Of a DNA stretch of 41,618 nt, positions 1,824 through 11,843 are shown one piece after another. Origin of the DNA: a virus; the IMG/VR virus record IMGVR_UViG_3300017771_000027, positions 1 to 41,618 of that record; one strand, written 5' to 3'. The position numbers and the translations under genes are program-made. Numbering within the stretch: position 1 is the first letter of the stretch; each line of letters begins with the position of its first letter. The notes under the pieces were generated by a model that saw only the letters and a list, made by a program, of their open reading frames with translations, ran no database searches and was not told the DNA's origin.

Positions 1824-1854
1824 TAAGAGTTTAGACTGATTGTTTGTGTCAGCA

Positions 1855-3048
1855 ATGCAGATGTTAGTAAAGAAGGAGAATTCCTCCGGTTATTTTAACA
1901 TTTTAAAATCAGATGATTTAGTTATTGGTGGTTATGCTTCTATAGAAATAGTAGATAAACAAAATGACTTAATTACATTAGAAGCATTAAATGATGCAGT
2001 AGCAAAATATATGAGCGAAAAGAAATTTAGAAATGTAATGTCTAATCATTCTAATGTTCAAGTTGGAGAAGTTGTAGAAAATTATAGAGATAAAAATGGA
2101 ATGCTTCACAAAACAGAAGTAGATAATGTTGGTTTTTATGTTGTAATTAAATTAAGAGATGACATAGAAAAGGCAAAAGAAATCTCAAGAGGTATTAGAA
2201 AAGGAACACTACGCTCCTTTAGTATTGGTGGACAAGCAATATCAAAGCGTAGTAAAAAATCAGATGAGTTAGGTCAATACAATGAAATTGACAAGTTAGA
2301 GTTACATGAGGTAACTATATGTGAAAAGGGAATTAATCCCGAAGCGAGATTCGACATTTTAAAACAAGATGTTGGAGGTAATAAAATGAGTGAAAAATTG
2401 GAAAAAGCACTTGAGGAGTTGAACGGCTTGATGAAACAAGTTAGTGATATCCACAAGGAAGAAGAAGAAGACAATATGACAGAAGCAAAAGGTGATATGA
2501 GTTACATGGATACCGAAGAAGGCGAAGAAGAGATGAAGGCCGATGATGATGAAATGCTTGATGATGAAGCAAAAGCATTAGACATTGACAATACTCATTC
2601 AGAAGCCGGAGAAGAAATAGTACGTGGTGGAAATCCAACTGCAACTCCTGCTCCTCTTAAAGTATCTAAAGGATTAGAGAATGCTGATTTCAGTACTCTA
2701 AACTTAAGTCAAGAAAATGTAGAGAAGGCATACGAGGCTTTCAAAGCAGAACGTCTTGAGAAACTTGCATATGATTCCCTAAGTAAGAACTTTGAAACAA
2801 GACTTACTGAAGAATTATCCCTTAAGAAAGCAAATGCTGAAAGATTAGAGTATGATGCTCTTGCTGAAGTAACTGCTCTTAAGACTGAGTTCGCAGAACT
2901 ACGCAAATCCCTATCTGAAAAAGATAGCGAAGTACGCAAAGCACAAGAAGTTGCTATGTCATTACCTGAAGGATTCCCAACATCAATAGATGCAATAGCA
3001 GATATGTCTTGGGGAGATATACATACATTAGTTGGAAGGAGAGATTAA
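1855..3048 (+). CDS. Prohead protease fused to capsid scaffold (XkdF/HK97-type)
   Basis: Maturation protease plus scaffold for the HK97-fold capsid. Numbering from a possible TTG start at 1840, residues ~25-175 form a protease domain with the GYASIEIVD strand, a candidate catalytic His in SNHSN (H70) and a candidate Ser in SFSIGG (S128), then LHEVTICEKGINPEARF, typical of the XkdF/HK97 prohead protease group. Residues ~183-402 are acidic, charged and predicted coiled coil, as expected for a scaffold. Starts at 1840 (TTG), 1855 or 1861 are possible; I prefer an ATG because of the upstream TATA-like box. It sits immediately before the major capsid gene, the standard order. An internal in-frame start inside it is listed separately. 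Confidence 0.85.
   Translation: MQMLVKKENSSGYFNILKSDDLVIGGYASIEIVDKQNDLITLEALNDAVAKYMSEKKFRNVMSNHSNVQVGEVVENYRDKNGMLHKTEVDNVGFYVVIKLRDDIEKAKEISRGIRKGTLRSFSIGGQAISKRSKKSDELGQYNEIDKLELHEVTICEKGINPEARFDILKQDVGGNKMSEKLEKALEELNGLMKQVSDIHKEEEEDNMTEAKGDMSYMDTEEGEEEMKADDDEMLDDEAKALDIDNTHSEAGEEIVRGGNPTATPAPLKVSKGLENADFSTLNLSQENVEKAYEAFKAERLEKLAYDSLSKNFETRLTEELSLKKANAERLEYDALAEVTALKTEFAELRKSLSEKDSEVRKAQEVAMSLPEGFPTSIDAIADMSWGDIHTLVGRRD
2374..2379 (+). promoter_or_regulatory. internal Shine-Dalgarno inside protease gene
   Basis: A complete GGAGGT lies six bases before an in-frame ATG at 2386, inside the protease-scaffold reading frame and exactly at the protease/scaffold boundary. It is as strong as any ribosome binding site in the window and marks a likely separate scaffold start. 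Confidence 0.6.
2386..3048 (+). CDS. Nested scaffold protein from in-frame internal start
   Basis: Starting at the ATG behind GGAGGT, this product is the 220-residue C-terminal part of the protease-scaffold protein, beginning MSEKLEKALEELNGLMKQ. It is rich in Glu, Lys and Asp and mostly predicted helix/coiled coil, with an acidic middle (EEGEEEMKADDDEML) and an Ala/Glu/Leu-rich helix near the end. Known parallel: in phage lambda the scaffold Nu3 is made from an internal start inside protease gene C. The start here is inferred from the ribosome binding site and the domain boundary. Confidence 0.6.
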   Translation: MSEKLEKALEELNGLMKQVSDIHKEEEEDNMTEAKGDMSYMDTEEGEEEMKADDDEMLDDEAKALDIDNTHSEAGEEIVRGGNPTATPAPLKVSKGLENADFSTLNLSQENVEKAYEAFKAERLEKLAYDSLSKNFETRLTEELSLKKANAERLEYDALAEVTALKTEFAELRKSLSEKDSEVRKAQEVAMSLPEGFPTSIDAIADMSWGDIHTLVGRRD

Positions 3049-3050
3049 GA

Positions 3051-4436
3051 ATGACATACATAAATACAATAAGAGATTTGGAAGCAAGCACATACGGAAT
3101 GACAGGAGCATCAGGAAATGCACTACTAAAGAGTAGTGGAGTTGTTGGTGGTTTTGGTACAGGGCATGATACAGGTGCTACAAGCCTTAGCGGTGGTGCA
3201 TCAGGTTTAGGAGACTTATACAACGTTCTTTATGGACAAAAAGTTTGGTCAATGTTAAATCAAGAAGTTAACGCTTTGTCAATGATTGCTAAGAGGCCAT
3301 ATACATCAAGTGGTTGGAGAATACTAAAATCCCGTCCTGCTGGTGGTTCAGATGCCGCATTCGGAATAGGCGATACTGCGGTTGGTGCAAATGTTACTGA
3401 TTTATCTGCTCCTAGAGCAGACCAAATTGGTGGTGTAGAAGAAAACGCAACATTAGGTGGAGCAGATGGATTCAGAGCATTGTCTCCTGAATACACTAAA
3501 CTATTTACAAGCCCTAAAACAATAGCACATTTGTTCGAGTTCTCTGAACTTGGAATGGAAATGGCCGCTATTGATGATGGTGTTGGCGATATACGTGCAA
3601 TTGTTAGAGAAGACATGGGTAAGCATCACGCTGAAGTTCAAAGCAAGATGTTACTAATGCCTTTTGAAAGATATGATAATGCAACTGCAACTGACATAGA
3701 CAGAAACTACACTTCTTTAATGAAGATAGTTGCTTCTAACAAAGAAATTGCGGCTATGGCTAATGCTAACATGACAGATATGGGTGCAAATGATTCTTCA
3801 TCTCTATCAGGATTAGAAGACGTATTAAAATTATATGGTGCTAATAGAAGTGATAATAGTGGTGTAACTGTAAGTGGTTCAACATATACAGGTGTTAACG
3901 ATTTCATGAGTGCAGAAGTTGACTTCGGTACAAATTATTCCGGTGGTGCTAGAGTATTAACTCTAACAATACTAAATGATATGCTACGAAGAATACGTGT
4001 TAACGGTGGAAATCCAAAAGTTATCTTAACAGGATACGATACTATACAACATCTATCTGACTTACTACAAAGTCAAGAGAGATTTATGGATAGGAAAGAA
4101 ATTGTTCCTACACATAATGGTGTTCGTGGAGTTAAGGGTTCAGAAGTTGGTTTCAGAGTTGCAACATACTATGACATACCAATTATCCCATCAAAGGATA
4201 TGCCTTCTACAGGATTAGAAACTGCTAACCCATTAAGTGATTTGTTAATTCTAGATACTGACCATCTATGGTTAGCGGTTATGAAGCCTACACAATACTT
4301 CGAGGACGGAATTTCAAATGGAAACCCATTCGGTGTTGGTAAACTTGGTAATCAAGGAATGTACCGCACTATGGGAGAAACATGTTGTTCCTTCTTTAAG
4401 GGTCAAGGTAAAATTACTAACTTGAAGTCTGCTTGA
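3051..4436 (+). CDS. Major capsid protein, HK97 fold
   Basis: Main shell protein. 461 residues from the ATG at 3051, which has a strong GGAAGGAGAG behind the protease stop; an in-frame upstream ATG at 3009 would overlap the protease gene and lacks a ribosome site. The N-terminal ~60 residues are Gly/Ser/Ala-rich and could be a processed delta region. The middle (SPEYTKLFTSPKTIAHLFEF, then DIRAIVREDMGKHHAEVQSKML) looks like the HK97 N-arm/E-loop to spine-helix part, and PKVILTGYDTIQHL with VGFRVATYYDIPIIPS fits the P- and A-domains. Position after the protease and before decoration-sized genes agrees. I infer the fold from context and pattern rather than from alignment. Confidence 0.85.
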   Translation: MTYINTIRDLEASTYGMTGASGNALLKSSGVVGGFGTGHDTGATSLSGGASGLGDLYNVLYGQKVWSMLNQEVNALSMIAKRPYTSSGWRILKSRPAGGSDAAFGIGDTAVGANVTDLSAPRADQIGGVEENATLGGADGFRALSPEYTKLFTSPKTIAHLFEFSELGMEMAAIDDGVGDIRAIVREDMGKHHAEVQSKMLLMPFERYDNATATDIDRNYTSLMKIVASNKEIAAMANANMTDMGANDSSSLSGLEDVLKLYGANRSDNSGVTVSGSTYTGVNDFMSAEVDFGTNYSGGARVLTLTILNDMLRRIRVNGGNPKVILTGYDTIQHLSDLLQSQERFMDRKEIVPTHNGVRGVKGSEVGFRVATYYDIPIIPSKDMPSTGLETANPLSDLLILDTDHLWLAVMKPTQYFEDGISNGNPFGVGKLGNQGMYRTMGETCCSFFKGQGKITNLKSA

Positions 4437-4447
4437 GGTGATTAGGA

Positions 4448-4810
4448 ATGGCATTAGCATATTCTGTAACATTGTTGGCTGACCATAAAGGTATAGCCGC
4501 ACCTAAAGTACATGGAGATGAGTACTATGTAGATGCAATAATAGACGTAACTTCAGCAGTAGCGGCAGGGTCAGTTATCCCTGCTTCTGCTCTTGGATTA
4601 AGTACTATATCTGCGGTCTTAATAACAGGTAGTGATAATCCTAACAATAGTACTAATGACATAGCAGTAAAAGTAGAATGTTCAGCAACAGGGGGATACG
4701 AAAGTGGAACTTCCTTTGCTCTCATGTTTACTACAGTTGCTAGTGGAACTACCATTTCTGATGATGCAAATGGTGGAAGTACTAGAGTTAGAGTCTACGG
4801 ACTCCTTTAA
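4448..4810 (+). CDS. Small beta-rich head protein, possible capsid decoration protein
   Basis: 120 residues, starting behind GAGGTGAT only 11 nt after the capsid stop. It is rich in Ser, Thr, Val and Ala with alternating beta-strand patterns (DVTSAVAAGSVIPASAL, TRVRVYGLL at the end), no membrane segment and no cysteine cluster apart from one Cys. Size, composition and place right after the capsid gene suggest a decoration or head-stabilising protein. The family is not recognised; another small virion protein is possible. Confidence 0.55.
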   Translation: MALAYSVTLLADHKGIAAPKVHGDEYYVDAIIDVTSAVAAGSVIPASALGLSTISAVLITGSDNPNNSTNDIAVKVECSATGGYESGTSFALMFTTVASGTTISDDANGGSTRVRVYGLL

Positions 4811-4835
4811 GTGTAAAAACGTAAAACGTAAAATA

Positions 4836-4873
4836 GTAGTCATTGCTCCCTCTTAGCGGGGAGCGATGGCTAC
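4836..4873 (+). terminator. 15-bp intergenic hairpin behind the capsid/decoration genes
   Basis: GTAGTCATTGCTCCC pairs with GGGAGCGATGGCTAC over 15 bp with two G-U pairs and an 8-nt loop (TCTTAGCG). It fills most of the gap between the 120-residue head gene and the next gene. There is no long T-run after it, so it may be an attenuator or an mRNA-stabilising or processing structure rather than a full terminator. Confidence 0.6.
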
Positions 4874-4897
4874 CTATCTAATTATGGAGTGAAAACA

Positions 4898-5302
4898 ATG
4901 GTAAAAGTAAAAATAAATGAAACAGGACAAGATTGTATTGTATGGCTTGGTGGAAGAAATTATTCTATTAATGCACTAGGAACTACACCCGAAATGCCTT
5001 CTAGGTTAGGACTAAGTTTAGTAGCAAATAAAGATTTAGAATTAACTTTTGAAGCAAGTGATAGAAAATTAATTTCTAATTTAAATGAAGAAAACCTAGA
5101 AGTTTTTTATAAAGTATATCATGTAGATAATACAAAGGATTTATTGAATAAAATATTTCCTAAAAAAACTACTACACAAAAAGTAAAGAAAGTAGTAGAA
5201 GAAGTATTAGAAACTCCTGCTAAGAAAGCCCCTGCTAAGAAGAAAACACCTGCTAAGAAGGCGGCTAAGAAAACACCTGCTAAGAAAGAGGTGAAAAAGT
5301 AA
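4898..5302 (+). CDS. Small protein with histone-H1-like basic tail
   Basis: 134 residues from the ATG at 4898, which has GGAGTGA just upstream; a GTG at 4889 overlaps that site and is less likely. Residues ~1-95 form a compact alpha/beta domain (VKVKINETGQDCIVWLGG). The last ~40 residues are a Lys/Ala/Pro repeat built from PAKK units (for example APAKKKTPAKKAAKK), like histone H1 or bacterial DNA-condensing tails. Such a tail would bind DNA or another polyanion; in this place, among head genes, it could be packed with the genome or help attach tail parts. The function is unknown. It overlaps the next gene by one base (TAATG). Confidence 0.6.
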   Translation: MVKVKINETGQDCIVWLGGRNYSINALGTTPEMPSRLGLSLVANKDLELTFEASDRKLISNLNEENLEVFYKVYHVDNTKDLLNKIFPKKTTTQKVKKVVEEVLETPAKKAPAKKKTPAKKAAKKTPAKKEVKK

Positions 5303-5616
5303 TGGCTATAACATCTGCTTCAAGTGGAGTTAAAACTGCTGATGGAGTTATTTCAGCATCAAGATGTAAACTTATGAGTATTCATGTTAGTGTTACTAGT
5401 AGTAGTGGAACTGCGGCATTGAGTACTCTAAAACTTTATGATAATGCAAGTGCCGCAAGTGGTACAGAAGTATCTAGAATTAATTTATTAGCATCTAGTA
5501 CTTCTCCACAAACTATTGAATTTGATATGCATGGAGTATTATGTGCTAATGGGCTATATGCTGATGTAACGGTAGGTAGTAATTGCACTGTAGCGTATAG
5601 CGTGGAGTTTGCGTAA
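5302..5616 (+). CDS. Small beta-sandwich-like virion protein
   Basis: 104 residues, translationally coupled to the previous gene through TAATG. It is Ser/Thr/Ala/Val-rich with regular beta-strand alternation (KLMSIHVSVTSSSGTAAL, IEFDMHGVLCANGLY, VAYSVEFA). No membrane segment, signal peptide or catalytic motif. Similar in size and flavour to the 120-residue head protein, so it may be a second decoration or minor head protein. Family not recognised. Confidence 0.5.
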   Translation: MAITSASSGVKTADGVISASRCKLMSIHVSVTSSSGTAALSTLKLYDNASAASGTEVSRINLLASSTSPQTIEFDMHGVLCANGLYADVTVGSNCTVAYSVEFA

Positions 5617-5617
5617 T

Positions 5618-6031
5618 ATGCCTAGCATAGATACAGATACAAGACTAATAATGACAATACTATTCGTAGGGTCGGTTAGCGGCGTTAATGTTTATTTTTA
5701 CACTCAATATGGTGTAGACTTCCCATATGGCGGTTATGCTCATGGAGTATTATTTGGTATTATAACCATTGGTGCTATTATGATTATGAAAGCGGCCTTT
5801 GATTTAATGCTTCATGATATGATAGAAGATAGATTACTTCAACGTAATATTGATAATTATTGGTTTAGAAAGGCTAGAGATGAAGAAAACCGTAAGAGAG
5901 TTAGAGAGTCTATGAGAAACTTTCAACAAAACTTTGCTCCCGTATATGGAGATGCAAACTTACCTACATTTGGACAAACTAAAACAGACGAACAAACAGT
6001 TTCACCCGCATTCTTAACAGAACTAAGGTAG
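5618..6031 (+). CDS. Membrane protein with two transmembrane helices
   Basis: 137 residues from the ATG at 5618 (a TTG nine bases earlier is also open). Two hydrophobic helices are clear: LIMTILFVGSVSGVNVYFYT near residues 9-28 and HGVLFGIITIGAIMIM near 42-57. The C-terminal half is charged and helical (EDRLLQRNIDNYWFRKARDE), probably cytoplasmic. It opens a run of genes that ends with the 812-residue protein and is followed by a second small membrane protein and a GTPase, which suggests a membrane-associated function. Not recognised; lysis or holin-like, virion-membrane or egress roles are all open. Confidence 0.65.
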   Translation: MPSIDTDTRLIMTILFVGSVSGVNVYFYTQYGVDFPYGGYAHGVLFGIITIGAIMIMKAAFDLMLHDMIEDRLLQRNIDNYWFRKARDEENRKRVRESMRNFQQNFAPVYGDANLPTFGQTKTDEQTVSPAFLTELR

Positions 6032-6047
6032 ATAGGAGGTCATAAAT

Positions 6048-6272
6048 ATGGTAGGAGAAATCCTAATGGGCTTTGATGAGTCCGCTATGGCTTATGATTT
6101 ACAAAGAGCCCATTCAGCAGATATATGGTTTATACGAGCAAGGTTTTGGATATGGGGAATAATTGCTTCTATAGTATCTTTTGGAATAGGGCATCTTGTT
6201 GCACATCTAGGATTTAATATGTATTCTTGGTTGTGGGGAGGTATGGTAGACTTTTGGAATCATTTATGGTGA
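6048..6272 (+). CDS. Single-pass membrane microprotein
   Basis: 74 residues with a strong GGAGGT at the right spacing. One clear transmembrane stretch, WIWGIIASIVSFGIGHLVAH (about residues 34-53), lies in a Trp/Phe-rich C-terminal half that ends GGMVDFWNHLW. The N-terminal ~30 residues are soluble and mildly acidic. It lies between the two-helix membrane protein and the small GTPase with gaps of 16 and 4 nt, so the three are surely co-translated. A membrane anchor or partner of the GTPase is a reasonable guess; no family recognised. Confidence 0.6.
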   Translation: MVGEILMGFDESAMAYDLQRAHSADIWFIRARFWIWGIIASIVSFGIGHLVAHLGFNMYSWLWGGMVDFWNHLW

Positions 6273-6276
6273 TATT

Positions 6277-6948
6277 ATGTCAGTGATGGCAGGTTTTGCT
6301 ATATTGTTAGTTGAAGGTATTAATAAGGTATATCAAAGACTACACTCTATTCCTTTTGGTGTATATGGTGCGAGCAAAGCAGGGAAGACAACTTTACATC
6401 ATCAATTAAGAACTAGAGGAGAAGTACCAACAATAGTAGAAAGAACTGTTGGAACACATAAAGCAACTAGAAAATATGTTAAATTAGACGGTGATGCTCA
6501 TACTGTAAAAACTGCTGATATTGGGGGAGAAACAGTTTTTTGGGGAGAATGGGTAGAAGACATGAAAAATAGACATGTAAAATATATAATATTCATGATA
6601 GATGATAGACATATGGATAAACATTTTGATATTGAACAACAATTATGTTGGACGTTTTTAGTAGATACTATTTGTGCAAATTCTTGGACAGTAAATGGTA
6701 AAAATAGAAAAAAGAAAAATCATGATTATCCCATTGCAGTAGGAATGTGGGCTAATAAATATGATTTATGGAAAGACAAATATGACTATGATGGCCCAAT
6801 AGAAAAACATCCAATCTTTGAATCTTTTCAAGTAGGTATGCAAAAATTAAATGACAAAGGAATACCATGTTTTAAATATATAGTGAGTGCGAAGTCTGAT
6901 TCAGAGATGGTGTATAGAGGAATATTAACAATGATAAAAGATTACTAG
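6277..6948 (+). CDS. Ras/Arf-like small GTPase
   Basis: P-loop GTPase of 223 residues carrying the small-GTPase motif set in order: G1 GASKAGKT (31-38), G3 DIGGE (81-85, like the DVGGQ of Arf proteins), G4 NKYD (160-163) and G5 SAK (204-206). The switch I Thr of G2 is probably one of those in PTIVERTVGTHKAT (51-64). Expected activity is GTP binding and hydrolysis as a molecular switch. The first ~15 residues are hydrophobic and may touch membrane. Two small membrane proteins lie just upstream and a Zn-finger protein just downstream. Start at 6277 has GGTGAT nearby; 6286 is possible. Small GTPases are not usual components of HK97-type structural clusters. The family call is firm at motif level; its role is unknown. 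Confidence 0.8.
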   Translation: MSVMAGFAILLVEGINKVYQRLHSIPFGVYGASKAGKTTLHHQLRTRGEVPTIVERTVGTHKATRKYVKLDGDAHTVKTADIGGETVFWGEWVEDMKNRHVKYIIFMIDDRHMDKHFDIEQQLCWTFLVDTICANSWTVNGKNRKKKNHDYPIAVGMWANKYDLWKDKYDYDGPIEKHPIFESFQVGMQKLNDKGIPCFKYIVSAKSDSEMVYRGILTMIKDY

Positions 6949-6957
6949 GTGAAGAAA

Positions 6958-7629
6958 ATGGCAATGAATTATAACCCCCCAAATTTAATAGGAGCAACAA
7001 CGACAAATGTGAGTAACCCTTTCTTAGACAGGTTTACTCAAGCAAGAGCCGCAGGTGCGGTAATGTTATACGAATATAAAAGTGTAAAACCAAAAAAACA
7101 ACTTAAAGAAATAATAAAAGTATTAGTACCGGAAAAGAAAACCTTCCTAAAACTACCATATAAATTCAAATATAATATGAAAGATAGATGTGTGGTTTGT
7201 GGAACTCAAAAAGTTTGGGAATCTGCTGACAGTATGCGACCCCCATTACCATTACATAAAGTTAGAAAGGGTTATCCAATGAGAGGAACTTATTGTGATA
7301 AACATGCTTCTATTCATAGACAATATGAAATGTTAGAACAACAAATGTTAGCAGAAGAACATGGATTAAGTTATAGTGCATATATACCCAAAATGTCTAA
7401 TTTAAATCCTTTATCAAGTGGCCCACTAACAAGTCTTAAGCAAGTAGATATACAATCTCTTTCTGCTTTAGGATGGACAGTAAAACCCCCTACAGTTGGA
7501 ATAGAAAGTAAGGAAGAAGAACTTTTTAGATTACTAATTGAAAGTAATGCAAATAATGAAAGAGTCAAAACTTTATTAACTGACGGCGTGAAGATACAAG
7601 TGCAAGAGCAGGTGGGGGTTGAGGAATAA
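6958..7629 (+). CDS. Zinc-finger protein of unknown function
   Basis: 223 residues from the ATG at 6958, which has GGTGA before it; a GTG at 6949 is also open. A likely metal site is CVVC (residues ~79-82) with CDKH about 30 residues later (TYCDKHASIH). The spacing resembles treble-clef or HNH-type zinc folds, but no full nuclease signature is evident. The N-terminus is Asn/Pro-rich, followed by a basic stretch (KPKKQLKEIIKVLVPEKKTF); the C-terminal third is helical and acidic. It lies 9 nt after the GTPase and overlaps the next gene by one base. A partner of the GTPase is possible. Family not recognised. Confidence 0.55.
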   Translation: MAMNYNPPNLIGATTTNVSNPFLDRFTQARAAGAVMLYEYKSVKPKKQLKEIIKVLVPEKKTFLKLPYKFKYNMKDRCVVCGTQKVWESADSMRPPLPLHKVRKGYPMRGTYCDKHASIHRQYEMLEQQMLAEEHGLSYSAYIPKMSNLNPLSSGPLTSLKQVDIQSLSALGWTVKPPTVGIESKEEELFRLLIESNANNERVKTLLTDGVKIQVQEQVGVEE

Positions 7630-8312
7630 TGGGAGTATTCGGTACAAGTAATGGTCAAATATTATCATCTATGAATGCTAATAATCAAACGCAGTTTAAA
7701 ACAATGAATAATTTATTAACTTTACAAGAGAACCATGTAGAAGATTTCTTTCAATATCATGGAGAAGCATTTTTAGCGGCTTTAGATAAATTAATAGAAG
7801 ATGCAGTAGAAAGAAGTGTTAGTAAAGTTCTAGTTAATTTAAAGTTTAATACTCAAAGTAGTGGAGAAATAGTATTACATTCTGATGCATTATCATCACT
7901 TAATACTATTACAGAAGAAAACATTACATTAGATTTACAAACATTATTGGCTACTGCGGTTAATAGTGAAGTTATTATGCAAAGAAGAATGGCTAAACAA
8001 CAATATCTTGAATCACAAGGATTTTCTAGCCCTGCACAACAACCTATGCCTGTACAACCTATGGGTATGAACCCACAAAATATACAAGGTGGTAATATGG
8101 GTGTAGGTATGAATAATGCTATGAATCAACAAGCAATGGCTATGAATAATGGTAGCGGATATCCCGTTCCACCTGCCGGATATGACCAAATGAATAATGC
8201 ATATTGGATAGACCCTAATACAGGTCAGATGACATATACACCTCCTACTAGTGGTTTAGGATTAGGTGCGGCCATAACTAAAGGCGTTGCTTGGGCTAAA
8301 TGGTTGGCTTAA
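7629..8312 (+). CDS. Helical protein with Q/M/N/P-rich tail
   Basis: 227 residues, starting in the TAATG overlap with the zinc-finger gene. Residues ~15-135 look mostly helical (FKTMNNLLTLQENHVEDFFQ, LAALDKLIEDAVERSVSKVL). Residues ~145-205 are low complexity with repeated Met, Asn, Gln, Pro and Gly (QQPMPVQPMGMNPQN), then a short WIDPNTGQMTYTPP motif and a moderately hydrophobic C-terminal helix (LGLGAAITKGVAWAKWLA) that could be amphipathic. The disordered middle suggests an adaptor or condensate-forming part. Not recognised; most likely acts with its neighbours. Confidence 0.5.
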   Translation: MGVFGTSNGQILSSMNANNQTQFKTMNNLLTLQENHVEDFFQYHGEAFLAALDKLIEDAVERSVSKVLVNLKFNTQSSGEIVLHSDALSSLNTITEENITLDLQTLLATAVNSEVIMQRRMAKQQYLESQGFSSPAQQPMPVQPMGMNPQNIQGGNMGVGMNNAMNQQAMAMNNGSGYPVPPAGYDQMNNAYWIDPNTGQMTYTPPTSGLGLGAAITKGVAWAKWLA

Positions 8313-8326
8313 GCGAGGTTTATAGA

Positions 8327-10765
8327 ATGAGTTCAGCATTAATTATACCAAAAGATATACAAAATAATATAATTGGTGAGAATACATTAAATATAAATGA
8401 TATCTATTTACAAGAATCAGATAAAACAAGTCAATTTAATGAATTATTAAAGAAGAATAGTTTGTTTAGAAATATGGTTTTATTTCTATTTTCTAATTCT
8501 AATGTAAAAAGTCAAAGTATTACACAATCTCAACAATCCACATACTTATTATTACAACTAGATAAAGAGGATATGGACACATACACAAGAAAAAGAGAAC
8601 AAGATGACAACATGATGACAGTAAGAAATCCTTTAAAATTTATACAAAATGCAAATAAAAATTTTACAGACGAAGAATTTAAAGAATTTAAAGAAACATT
8701 TTTTGACATTATAGAAAATGTTGAGTTAGAAGAGTTTTTTGATAATATACTTGATATTGAAGATATAGATGAAAAAAACTTTAATACAATTTTTAGTAAT
8801 AAAGAATTTAAAGAATTTAAAGAAAAATTAAAAACCATACGAAACGGAAAAATTACAATAGAAGATTTGACTAATATAAAAATTAGAAATATTCTAGTAG
8901 GAGAAAAAGGGCAAGTAGGTACACAAGACTCAAAACCACATCCTGAAGAAGAAGAAATTGTTAGTCAAAATTATCTTAATAGTGAGGAATATAAAAACAG
9001 ACTAGAAGATAAGTCTGATGCTGAAGACCATCTTAGTTTAATTGCTAAATTTCAAGATAGTCTTCCGATTTTATATGATGATATTATGAAATATATTTCT
9101 ATCAAACCACATTATATAAAAAGAAAAAAAGCAATAGTAGAAGATAAAACAAGTCTTAGAGTTGTATTTGACCAATATTCGTATTTAAGACAAATATTTC
9201 TAAAATTTGGTTTTGAAGATTTAGAAGAAAGTAACTTTGAATTACATTCTTCGATATTAAAAAGCAATAATTTAATAACTAACATAGAAGGTTCGTTAAG
9301 TAAACAAAATAATTTATTAGTTTACGTTGCACCTGTTTATGAAAAGAAAGAACTTACTAAAATTAGATTAGTTGGTACGAAAAGCATACAAGAGTTTGAT
9401 ATTGATAAGGAAAATGAACTTGCAAAATTAGAGACTGAAATAAATGAATATGAAAATATAGTTAATAAAGATTATATTTACAATGAAATTAAAGATGTAT
9501 TATTGAAATCAGATTTATCTGAAATAGCCTTTATCAATTCTTTACTTAGTACTATTACACCCTCCGAAGGAAAAATTAATGTGGGTGAATTTACAATGGT
9601 TATTTCACATAACAAACCAAAAATGAAGGATATGGATGATTTTGTTAATCAAGTAAGAGAATTGCAAGAAACTTCTACTGAAAGAATACAAGATGATGCT
9701 AAGAAATTGAAAGAAAGATATCAAAAATTTAAGGCATTGTTTGATGGTATTCAAGGCAAGCATTTTGATATAGAGAAAATTGGCAAAATACATTCAGATG
9801 ATTTACCTGTTGGTAAATTGATAGATGGAGCAATGGTACATAAGCCATTAACATCTACAGAAAAAAAATATTCAATTATATTAAAGCCGGAAGATTTCAA
9901 GAAAAAGGCACAGGATGACGCAAAAATAAAAATGTTAAATAAAGAAATTCAATATTTAGACTCTCAAATATTAACTACATCGGACAAGAAAAAAAAGAGG
10001 TCATTACAAGCAAAATTAAGAAGCGTAATTAAAAATAAAAAAGATAAAAATTATAAGAATTATAAGAATGAAGAAATAGTTATAAATACACATTTTATAA
10101 TAGAAGAAATATTTAGTAAAACTGCAAGTGGATATGGTGCAGGTGATAAAGTATTAAGTAGACACGATGCAACTCAAATGTATATTAAGGCGTTAAAAGA
10201 TATAATGAATAAATTAGAAAAAGATAATACGGAATTAATTATGTTTGAGCAAAATTTAGGAGTGTTACATAAGTTTCTTAAAAAAAACAAAGACGGTGAA
10301 TTGGGGAAGACAACAGCATTTGCTGAACAAACAAAATCTATGAAAGAGATGGATATTAAAGGTTTTAATCCAACAGATTTAACAGATAATTATGATGTGT
10401 TAGATGCATATGCTTATTTAAAGAAAAAGAATACTGATGAAGACTTATTTTTTGAAACAATAGCAGATGGTATAAGAACCACCAAAACAACAAAAACTAA
10501 TAGAAAATTTTACATTCCTATTGTCGAAGAAAAAAAATATGTTTTTAATAAAAAGGGTTCTGTAAATACTAAGAAATTTAAAATAAAGTGGTCGAAACAA
10601 GGAAATAAAAAAACCGCTACGCAAAACAAAAAACAATCTAAAGGTGAATTTGGCGATACAATTAGTGATAGCGTAGTTGTTGGAGAAAAGCCTAATGTTA
10701 ACCTTAAAGCATTATTTGATGCACTATTGAGGAACTTTAAAACTTTAAGGGGGTTGACAAAGTAA
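8327..10765 (+). CDS. Large Lys/Glu/Asn-rich coiled-coil protein of unknown function
   Basis: 812 residues from the ATG at 8327, which has GAGGT seven bases upstream; an ATG at 8300 overlaps the previous gene. The protein is highly charged and helical, with coiled-coil stretches around residues 340-380 and 440-490 and two short KEFKEFKE segments (near 125 and 165). The last ~110 residues are very basic (KKFKIKWSKQGNKKTATQNK). No membrane segment, signal peptide, Walker or metal motif was found. It is more A-rich than the capsid and tail genes, which may mean a different origin. It closes the accessory block between capsid and connector genes. Not a recognisable portal, terminase or nuclease. 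Confidence 0.6.
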   Translation: MSSALIIPKDIQNNIIGENTLNINDIYLQESDKTSQFNELLKKNSLFRNMVLFLFSNSNVKSQSITQSQQSTYLLLQLDKEDMDTYTRKREQDDNMMTVRNPLKFIQNANKNFTDEEFKEFKETFFDIIENVELEEFFDNILDIEDIDEKNFNTIFSNKEFKEFKEKLKTIRNGKITIEDLTNIKIRNILVGEKGQVGTQDSKPHPEEEEIVSQNYLNSEEYKNRLEDKSDAEDHLSLIAKFQDSLPILYDDIMKYISIKPHYIKRKKAIVEDKTSLRVVFDQYSYLRQIFLKFGFEDLEESNFELHSSILKSNNLITNIEGSLSKQNNLLVYVAPVYEKKELTKIRLVGTKSIQEFDIDKENELAKLETEINEYENIVNKDYIYNEIKDVLLKSDLSEIAFINSLLSTITPSEGKINVGEFTMVISHNKPKMKDMDDFVNQVRELQETSTERIQDDAKKLKERYQKFKALFDGIQGKHFDIEKIGKIHSDDLPVGKLIDGAMVHKPLTSTEKKYSIILKPEDFKKKAQDDAKIKMLNKEIQYLDSQILTTSDKKKKRSLQAKLRSVIKNKKDKNYKNYKNEEIVINTHFIIEEIFSKTASGYGAGDKVLSRHDATQMYIKALKDIMNKLEKDNTELIMFEQNLGVLHKFLKKNKDGELGKTTAFAEQTKSMKEMDIKGFNPTDLTDNYDVLDAYAYLKKKNTDEDLFFETIADGIRTTKTTKTNRKFYIPIVEEKKYVFNKKGSVNTKKFKIKWSKQGNKKTATQNKKQSKGEFGDTISDSVVVGEKPNVNLKALFDALLRNFKTLRGLTK

Positions 10766-10766
10766 T

Positions 10767-11843
10767 ATGCCAAGAGTTAGTTCCCCAAGTGATTACACAA
10801 GTATCAATCCTAATTATGCTATAGGTAATGGACATTATACAACTCATACTGACATTTCTAATCTATTACAAATTAGTGCTTTTTCATCAAGCACTACTCC
10901 TAACTTAGTAGAAGTTGGTAAAATTATTAAAAATGTAGAAGGTAAAATAGATGATGCTATTGGTATTTCTTATAGACCACTAATCTACAAAGATGAATAT
11001 TATAGTTTTGAAGCATTTACTATGGGAGCATACCCAATACAACATTACAAAGACTATGTTGGTTTTATACAATTAGACCAACCAAAGATTCAAAAAATAG
11101 TAAGATTAGAAGTTTGGCAAGGTAGGTCTTGGAAAGATTTAGCATCTGCTACTGCTAAAATTACAATGCCTACTACTGTTACTACTTCAGCATGGTCTGT
11201 TACTTTAGTAGCAGGGAGTTGGACATTTGTTATTACAGAAAATACACACTTCTATGATACCTTTGGGCCAAAAACAACTGCAAGTCAATTAGCAGATGCA
11301 ATTAATGAAGTATATCCTGCTAAAACTGCTAAGTTTACGGGAGAAACTGCCGCTAAATCTGTAACGGCAAATGGAAATACTAGTATTAACATTTCAGATT
11401 TCTTCTATGCTACTGTAGATTCTGAAGATTCAAATACTGTAATTATCTCATCTTTATTATTAGGAGATGATGGTAAAAATTGTACTATTAGTTCTAATTT
11501 TGGTACAGTTATAGGATTTAATGATAATGAAACATCGGGTAGAACAGAAGATTTTTGGCAAATTGGAGATGAAGGAAAAATATTTTTCTTAAAGAATTAT
11601 CCACATATACAAAATCATTCAGTTAGGGTTAGTTATGTAAGTGGTGATGGTAGAGTTAGTTCTGCAATACATGAGGCCGCAACTAAATTGTCTGCCGCAG
11701 GTATTTTATTACACGATGATAACTCTATTCTTATTGCTGAAACAGGTTCAAATATAGATTTGAAAACTAAACATGATATTTTAGTAGAGGATGCAACAAA
11801 ACTAATAGATGGTAAAAAGAAAATGATACATTTTATATCGTGA
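10767..11843 (+). CDS. Head-tail adaptor protein with inserted beta domain
   Basis: 358 residues. The N-terminal helix pair (DISNLLQISAFSSSTTP then VGKIIKNVEGKIDDAIG) and the C-terminal HSVRVSYVSGDGRVSSAIHE followed by a helix (ATKLSAAGILLHDD) have the layout of gp6-like head-tail adaptors, which bind under the portal. Between them, residues ~130-255 form a beta domain with TTASQLADAINEVYPAKTAK and SNTVIISSLLLGDDGKN, a module also repeated in the 912-residue tail protein downstream. It begins the head-tail joining cluster and follows the 812-residue gene with almost no gap. Adaptor role inferred from pattern and position. Confidence 0.6.
   Translation: MPRVSSPSDYTSINPNYAIGNGHYTTHTDISNLLQISAFSSSTTPNLVEVGKIIKNVEGKIDDAIGISYRPLIYKDEYYSFEAFTMGAYPIQHYKDYVGFIQLDQPKIQKIVRLEVWQGRSWKDLASATAKITMPTTVTTSAWSVTLVAGSWTFVITENTHFYDTFGPKTTASQLADAINEVYPAKTAKFTGETAAKSVTANGNTSINISDFFYATVDSEDSNTVIISSLLLGDDGKNCTISSNFGTVIGFNDNETSGRTEDFWQIGDEGKIFFLKNYPHIQNHSVRVSYVSGDGRVSSAIHEAATKLSAAGILLHDDNSILIAETGSNIDLKTKHDILVEDATKLIDGKKKMIHFIS

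Follow-up and report, generated by a model that had tools for sequence, protein, structure and literature searches.

A Ras-like small GTPase cassette in the morphogenesis operon of magroviruses, a candidate membrane module for virion exit or assembly

Organization of the locus

The window, i.e. the whole 41,618-base stretch of DNA analysed here, is an IMG/VR virus fragment (IMGVR_UViG_3300017771_000027; G+C = 32.7%). Its plus strand encodes a ligase-domain protein, a prohead protease, the MCP, a tail tube protein (PF18906) and a tape measure, and its minus strand an exonuclease-like protein and an ERCC4 nuclease. In the Magrovirales the morphogenesis and replication modules are oppositely oriented in genomes of about 90-110 kb, and the hosts are Poseidoniales archaea, an assignment which we take from the same studies (PMC12999244, PMC10768690). 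The opposed modules, the size of the IMG/VR relatives (up to 102.7 kb), the ERCC4 nuclease and the ligase domain all agree with this description, and the window virus is a magrovirus, a tailed virus of Poseidoniales archaea belonging to an uncultured group. The ligase-domain protein (ATP-dependent DNA ligase, PF01068, E 1e-22; 15-1814) lies directly 5' of the prohead protease and is kept at the same upstream place in relatives; in G005 the replication module encodes another protein of this family. The protease matches PF04586 and PF14550, and the MCP is of the SU10/HK97-type (PF17236 SU10_MCP, phrog_24667), showing about 24-30% identity to the MCPs of Druskaviridae such as HVTV-1, which points to a distant kinship.

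Downstream of the capsid genes are five co-directional genes (5618-8312) with spacings of 16, 4, 0 and -1 nt, in line with the short gaps or overlaps described in the original prediction. The features of the region are as follows.

1840..5616, plus strand: upstream flank with prohead protease, MCP and three small minor-capsid-type genes, in the same order in viruses that lack the cassette (non-carriers)
5618..6031, plus strand: m1, 137 aa, with TM segments at aa 10-28 and 43-61 and, C-terminally, a charged helical tail
6048..6272, plus strand: m2, 74 aa, with one TM segment (aa 33-51) preceded by a conserved RAHSAD motif
6277..6948, plus strand: Ras-like small GTPase, 223 aa
6283..6342, plus strand: predicted N-terminal hydrophobic or mildly amphipathic helix of the GTPase (aa 3-22); M1-S2, G6-F7 and E13 invariant
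6367..6390, plus strand: G1 or P-loop, GASKAGKT (aa 31-38); G31, G36, K37 and T38 invariant in 146 sequences
6445..6447, plus strand: G2 switch I threonine T57 (RTxG), invariant in 146 sequences
6517..6531, plus strand: G3, DIGGE (aa 81-85); D81, G83 and G84 invariant, followed by invariant W89 and W92
6754..6765, plus strand: G4, NKYD (aa 160-163); N, K and D invariant in 146 sequences
6886..6894, plus strand: G5, SAK (aa 204-206), invariant in 146 sequences
6949..7629, plus strand: Zn protein, 226 aa, with a GTG start directly after the GTPase stop
7189..7305, plus strand: putative zinc site CVVC ... CDKH (C81, C84, C116, H119), all four invariant in 29 sequences
7629..8312, plus strand: dis, a Q/M/N-rich protein with a conserved helical N-half (NNLLTLQENHVEDFFQYHG), a Q/M/N-rich linker and a conserved C-terminus (YWIDPNTGQ ... 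AWAKWLA)
8300..10765, plus strand: 821-aa protein, filling the variable slot that separates the cassette from the adaptor
10767..11843, plus strand: adaptor-like protein, homologue of HVTV-1 gp125

The five ORFs predicted earlier, including two small membrane proteins, a CxxC/CxxH protein with a putative zinc site and a Q/M/N-rich protein, are thus all present. Their placement between the capsid genes and the head-tail adaptor is likewise upheld, but the 821-aa gene intervenes and the cassette therefore does not directly adjoin the adaptor; in non-carriers the variable slot is filled by 788/885-aa proteins. The tail tube protein and then the tape measure follow 3' of the adaptor-like protein. 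All five genes are under purifying selection (median dN/dS 0.06-0.16; GTPase 0.08, MCP 0.11), and m1 is kept in all cassette carriers. A Pfam search placed the Zn protein in no recognisable family, and folding it with the GTPase as one chain yielded no confident arrangement (pLDDT 59.8, pTM 0.45).

In about 15-20 loci (e.g. L191, L199, L200, L203) an extra unrelated gene sits between the GTPase and Zn genes, and those of the inserted genes that were read begin with an MW(F/K)DILK or MWFNILK tag. This tag is far more widespread: in 12 near-complete magrovirus contigs (L387-L446) 181 genes belonging to 130 unrelated families have a common N-terminal peptide of the pattern M(0-3)W..[IVLF][LIMV][KR], for example MSWFDILK, MTWKDIIK or MWFNILK, against 1.85 expected from shuffled N-termini, and 180 of the 181 are on the MCP strand. 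It looks like a common capsid- or virion-targeting tag, comparable to the T4 capsid-targeting sequence.

Affinities of the GTPase

The full small-GTPase motif set noted in the original prediction is present, its signature residues being invariant across the homologues. The AlphaFold2 model of the protein (pLDDT 69.6), in which the P-loop region is poorly modelled, finds Arl10B, Arl8b, Rab33 and Rab1/5 as its best matches in the PDB (Foldseek, E about 1e-7 (1.7e-7), TM about 0.5-0.65). The invariance of the motifs, taken together with these Ras-like fold matches, establishes that the third protein of the cassette is a genuine Ras-like small GTPase, one too diverged for any named family. From its motifs it is predicted to bind and hydrolyse GTP.

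Profile comparisons point in several directions, with matches to the SRPRB, MMR_HSR1 and Arf models that are significant though under the respective cut-offs. Among 26 relatives of the GTPase, 22 match MMR_HSR1, 19 SRPRB and 13 Arf at E up to 0.01. For the window GTPase itself the best single Pfam match is SRPRB (PF09439; 22.5 bits, under the 25-bit cut-off), yet the SRP receptor beta subunit works with SR-alpha, which is absent here. The earlier description of the protein as Arf-like is sustained only in part. With Arf, Arl and Sar it shares a DxGG[Q/E] G3, a helix before beta-1 and Arl8/Arl10B as top fold matches; the DxGG form of G3 and the invariant tryptophan 11 residues after the G3 aspartate recall Arf. 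Its membership of Arf proper, however, is doubtful: its score against PF00025 (18.6 bits) is under the 22.3 cut-off, and a separate profile search of the record gave no match to that model; Gly2, the site of N-myristoylation, is missing, M1-S2 being invariant in the 146 sequences; the residue after DxGG, at the catalytic position, is usually glutamate (E in 111, Q in 35 of the 146 distinct homologues); and there are inserts near G4. The N-terminal helix (aa 3-22) is only moderately amphipathic and not exceptional (hydrophobicity H 0.53, moment 0.31-0.45). The GTPase also differs from the MglA/MglB systems in that none of the five cassette proteins matches the roadblock domain of MglB-type GAPs (E up to 1).

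Linkage, inheritance and genomic context

Across 178 related loci, each with both MCP and adaptor, all five genes occur in 122 and none in 56, and a partial set was seen in 0 of the 178; the cassette-less loci came to light when the MCP rather than the GTPase served as the anchor of the scans. The five genes, predicted to be linked, are therefore a true unit. Neither of the two outcomes that would have overturned the original prediction, lack of a Ras-like fold and lack of linkage among the five genes, was observed. On an MCP tree of 84 representatives, rooted at midpoint, the carriers form one clade (support 98/100), consistent with one change. A single gain is the simplest reading because Druskaviridae and all the more distant MCP relatives examined are without the cassette, the alternative being one loss in the sister clade. 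Gene order was compared first among 80 relatives and then, following a second scan, among 162 loci. On every contig of sufficient length it runs protease-MCP-small capsid genes-m1-m2-GTPase-Zn-dis-(variable slot)-adaptor, which is the shared order that the original prediction proposed to seek in related viral contigs. The sister magrovirus clade keeps the flanking order with the cassette missing, an "empty site" that reads MCP-s120-s137-like-s104-like-large protein-adaptor. The original prediction also held that such clusters normally pass straight from capsid to connector, and this agrees with the cassette-less sister magroviruses, while in Druskaviridae only small genes lie between. In the latter (HVTV-1, HCTV-1) the protease, MCP and adaptor are homologous and in the same order, but four small genes replace the cassette. 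One of these, HVTV-1 gp124 (L081:16199-16531; 110 aa), has an N-terminal hydrophobic segment and sits directly before the adaptor, in the region where the magrovirus cassette also sits.

At least 387 relatives of the GTPase are present in IMG/VR. The 160 that were compared are 60-97% identical to the window protein, with no more distant forms seen. Profile searches found a single copy in 9/9 carrier contigs of 92-103 kb and none in 5/5 non-carrier contigs of 88-96 kb, and no relative was recovered from the phage or plasmid records searched. The two matches in cellular genomes are misbinned magrovirus contigs (L160 and L161, NZMJ01 contigs), which lie inside a public "Maricaulis sp." MAG, evidently as binning contamination. 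In one contig of 184,733 bases (IMGVR_UViG_3300021958_000021) a distance of about 92 kb separates two distinct GTPase loci (L165 and L182); this contig is either an assembly chimera or a join of two magrovirus genomes. Recent capture of a host gene was considered and rejected, given a codon composition like that of the neighbouring genes and the lack of any cellular, plasmid or phage relative in the general genome contigs and the plasmid and phage records that the search covered. The GTPase is unmentioned in two magrovirus genome papers (PMC10160649, PMC5332604), and an earlier mention in Philosof 2017 or Prabhu 2025 is possible.

This mode of inheritance bears on two of the functions that had been proposed. 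Defence systems include P-loop GTPases that have membrane partners, and the cassette might by this token act in superinfection exclusion or against plasmids. Yet none of the five proteins has a PADLOC match, and the set is inherited vertically as one clade, never in part, from a fixed late-operon position without loss inside the clade; these observations make a conflict-system GTPase very unlikely. Alternatively, the viral GTPase might serve as a decoy or mimic in GTPase-controlled membrane, motility or signalling pathways of the host, for which its Ras-like fold and its Arf-, SRPRB- and MMR_HSR1-like profile matches would suit it. Giant viruses of eukaryotes (Pithovirus, Tupanvirus and others) offer a precedent with their own Rab/Ras-like genes, although in another domain of hosts. 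Host-interaction genes are, however, usually patchy and fast evolving, whereas this GTPase shows no loss in the 122 loci and a dN/dS of 0.08, lies in a structural operon and is obligately linked to four other genes; furthermore, no cellular relative that it could mimic was found, host genomes being outside the direct search. Interference with host GTPase signalling hence appears improbable, though less so than defence.

We compared seven carriers and five non-carriers represented by near-complete contigs of 88-103 kb, calling genes and TM segments with simple scripts, so that small or unusual genes may be missed. The two groups have 41 core families in common. Nine families are carrier-specific (present in six or more carriers, absent from every non-carrier), namely the five of the cassette, one adjacent small capsid gene and three small unknowns, and the groups also differ in F51/F69, small capsid genes of the same neighbourhood. 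Apart from the tape measure, no TM families other than m1 and m2 occur in all 7 carrier genomes. The non-carriers have instead F66 (two TM segments and a charged tail; 5/5) and F75 (one C-terminal TM segment; 4/5), both absent from all carriers. In 3/5 of the non-carriers these two genes lie where the tail module ends, either as neighbours or with a single gene between them. F66 was found in 64 IMG/VR loci, and a GTPase of the cassette family is absent from the 27 F66-bearing contigs tested. Neither F66 nor F75 has a convincing Pfam or PHROG identity, and the pair (G001:6015-6912 and relatives; L447-L510) represents unannotated candidate exit or head-membrane genes. Homology of m1 and F66 was not significant in hhalign, and an argument for replacement of one pair by the other therefore proceeds by elimination only. 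Since F66 is also found in viruses without the magrovirus MCP, where it lies between portal and head genes and frequently has a one-TM partner, membrane pairs of this type are not necessarily exit genes.

Possible roles of the cassette

By elimination, the cassette appears to supply the conserved membrane proteins of the carrier lineage, coupled to a molecular switch, although rapidly evolving holins in the carriers could have been missed by the simple ORF and TM calls. The earlier view of the set as a membrane-associated switch is consistent with the membrane association of at least two members and with the small GTPase, features that would suit more than one function. Remodelling of the host envelope or assembly, both raised in the original prediction, remains the best reading. 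Our first choice, held tentatively, is that the cassette is a late-expressed, GTP-switched membrane module of magroviruses that serves virion exit or an assembly finished at the membrane. Endolysin-holin exit is considered ineffective where archaea have no cell wall, and how most archaeal viruses leave their hosts is unknown (PMC4456609); it is for these reasons that we place exit first, while the step from membrane proteins plus a switch to exit is one that we infer.

A partial analogue exists in Haloferax volcanii, in which vesicle budding requires the small GTPase ArvA (OapA), for which an N-terminal amphipathic helix is predicted; overexpression of ArvA causes hypervesiculation, one of its operon partners is a zinc-ribbon protein, and loss of that protein increases vesicle production (PMC10927574). 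Both systems operate in archaeal hosts and have a single-domain small GTPase with PF01926/PF00025 profile matches and an N-terminal helix that may enter the membrane; the operon of each also encodes a zinc-binding protein and another partner. The viral set differs in having two TM proteins and a Q/M/N-rich protein, and in its location within a capsid-tail operon. Moreover, neither ArvB (OapB, PF09846) nor ArvC (OapC, PF09845) has a match in the window up to E 10, and the cassette is therefore better said to work like the Arv operon than to be one. In this reading it would be an independently built set that has the same kinds of parts.

Under the membrane-module reading, the GTPase would attach to the host membrane through its N-terminal helix, through m1 and m2, or both, and the Zn protein may tune its GTP loading and hydrolysis. 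The GTP cycle would then make m1, m2 and the low-complexity protein dis assemble at the membrane, deforming or opening it, such that virions could leave or complete their assembly there. In its most specific form, an Arf- or ArvA-like switch acquired once would power a five-protein exit apparatus that replaced an older membrane-protein pair, a scenario which we regard as rather unlikely as a whole.

Ranked second, and only somewhat less plausible than the membrane module for exit, is a role in virion assembly or entry, in which the cassette builds or loads the head or neck structure with the GTPase as an assembly timer or checkpoint. Variants of this proposal place assembly at a site linked to the membrane, or suppose that the proteins are packaged to deliver the genome. 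The capsid-to-neck gene order suits assembly equally well: in all carriers the cassette keeps its place between minor capsid genes and adaptor, its GTPase is conserved as much as or more than the MCP (median identity 74% vs 68% in non-redundant sets), and the concurrent differences in F51/F69, the F66 relatives near portal genes outside magroviruses and the position and hydrophobic segment of gp124 are all compatible with it. On the other hand, a search of phage records found no relative of the GTPase, assembly proceeds without the cassette in the sister clade and in Druskaviridae, and two TM proteins would be unusual in a membrane-less tailed virion.

Magroviruses are among the commonest viruses of the ocean. 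An all-or-none unit with a Ras-like switch, which marks one clade against a sister with an "empty site", offers a concrete, testable candidate for the way in which tailed archaeal viruses exit from wall-less cells, and adds a viral counterpart to the recently found small-GTPase-driven budding in Euryarchaeota. If the exit apparatus described above is real, tailed archaeal viruses would thereby gain a first identified exit mechanism, and a small-GTPase machine would for the first time be known from the morphogenesis operon of a tailed virus.
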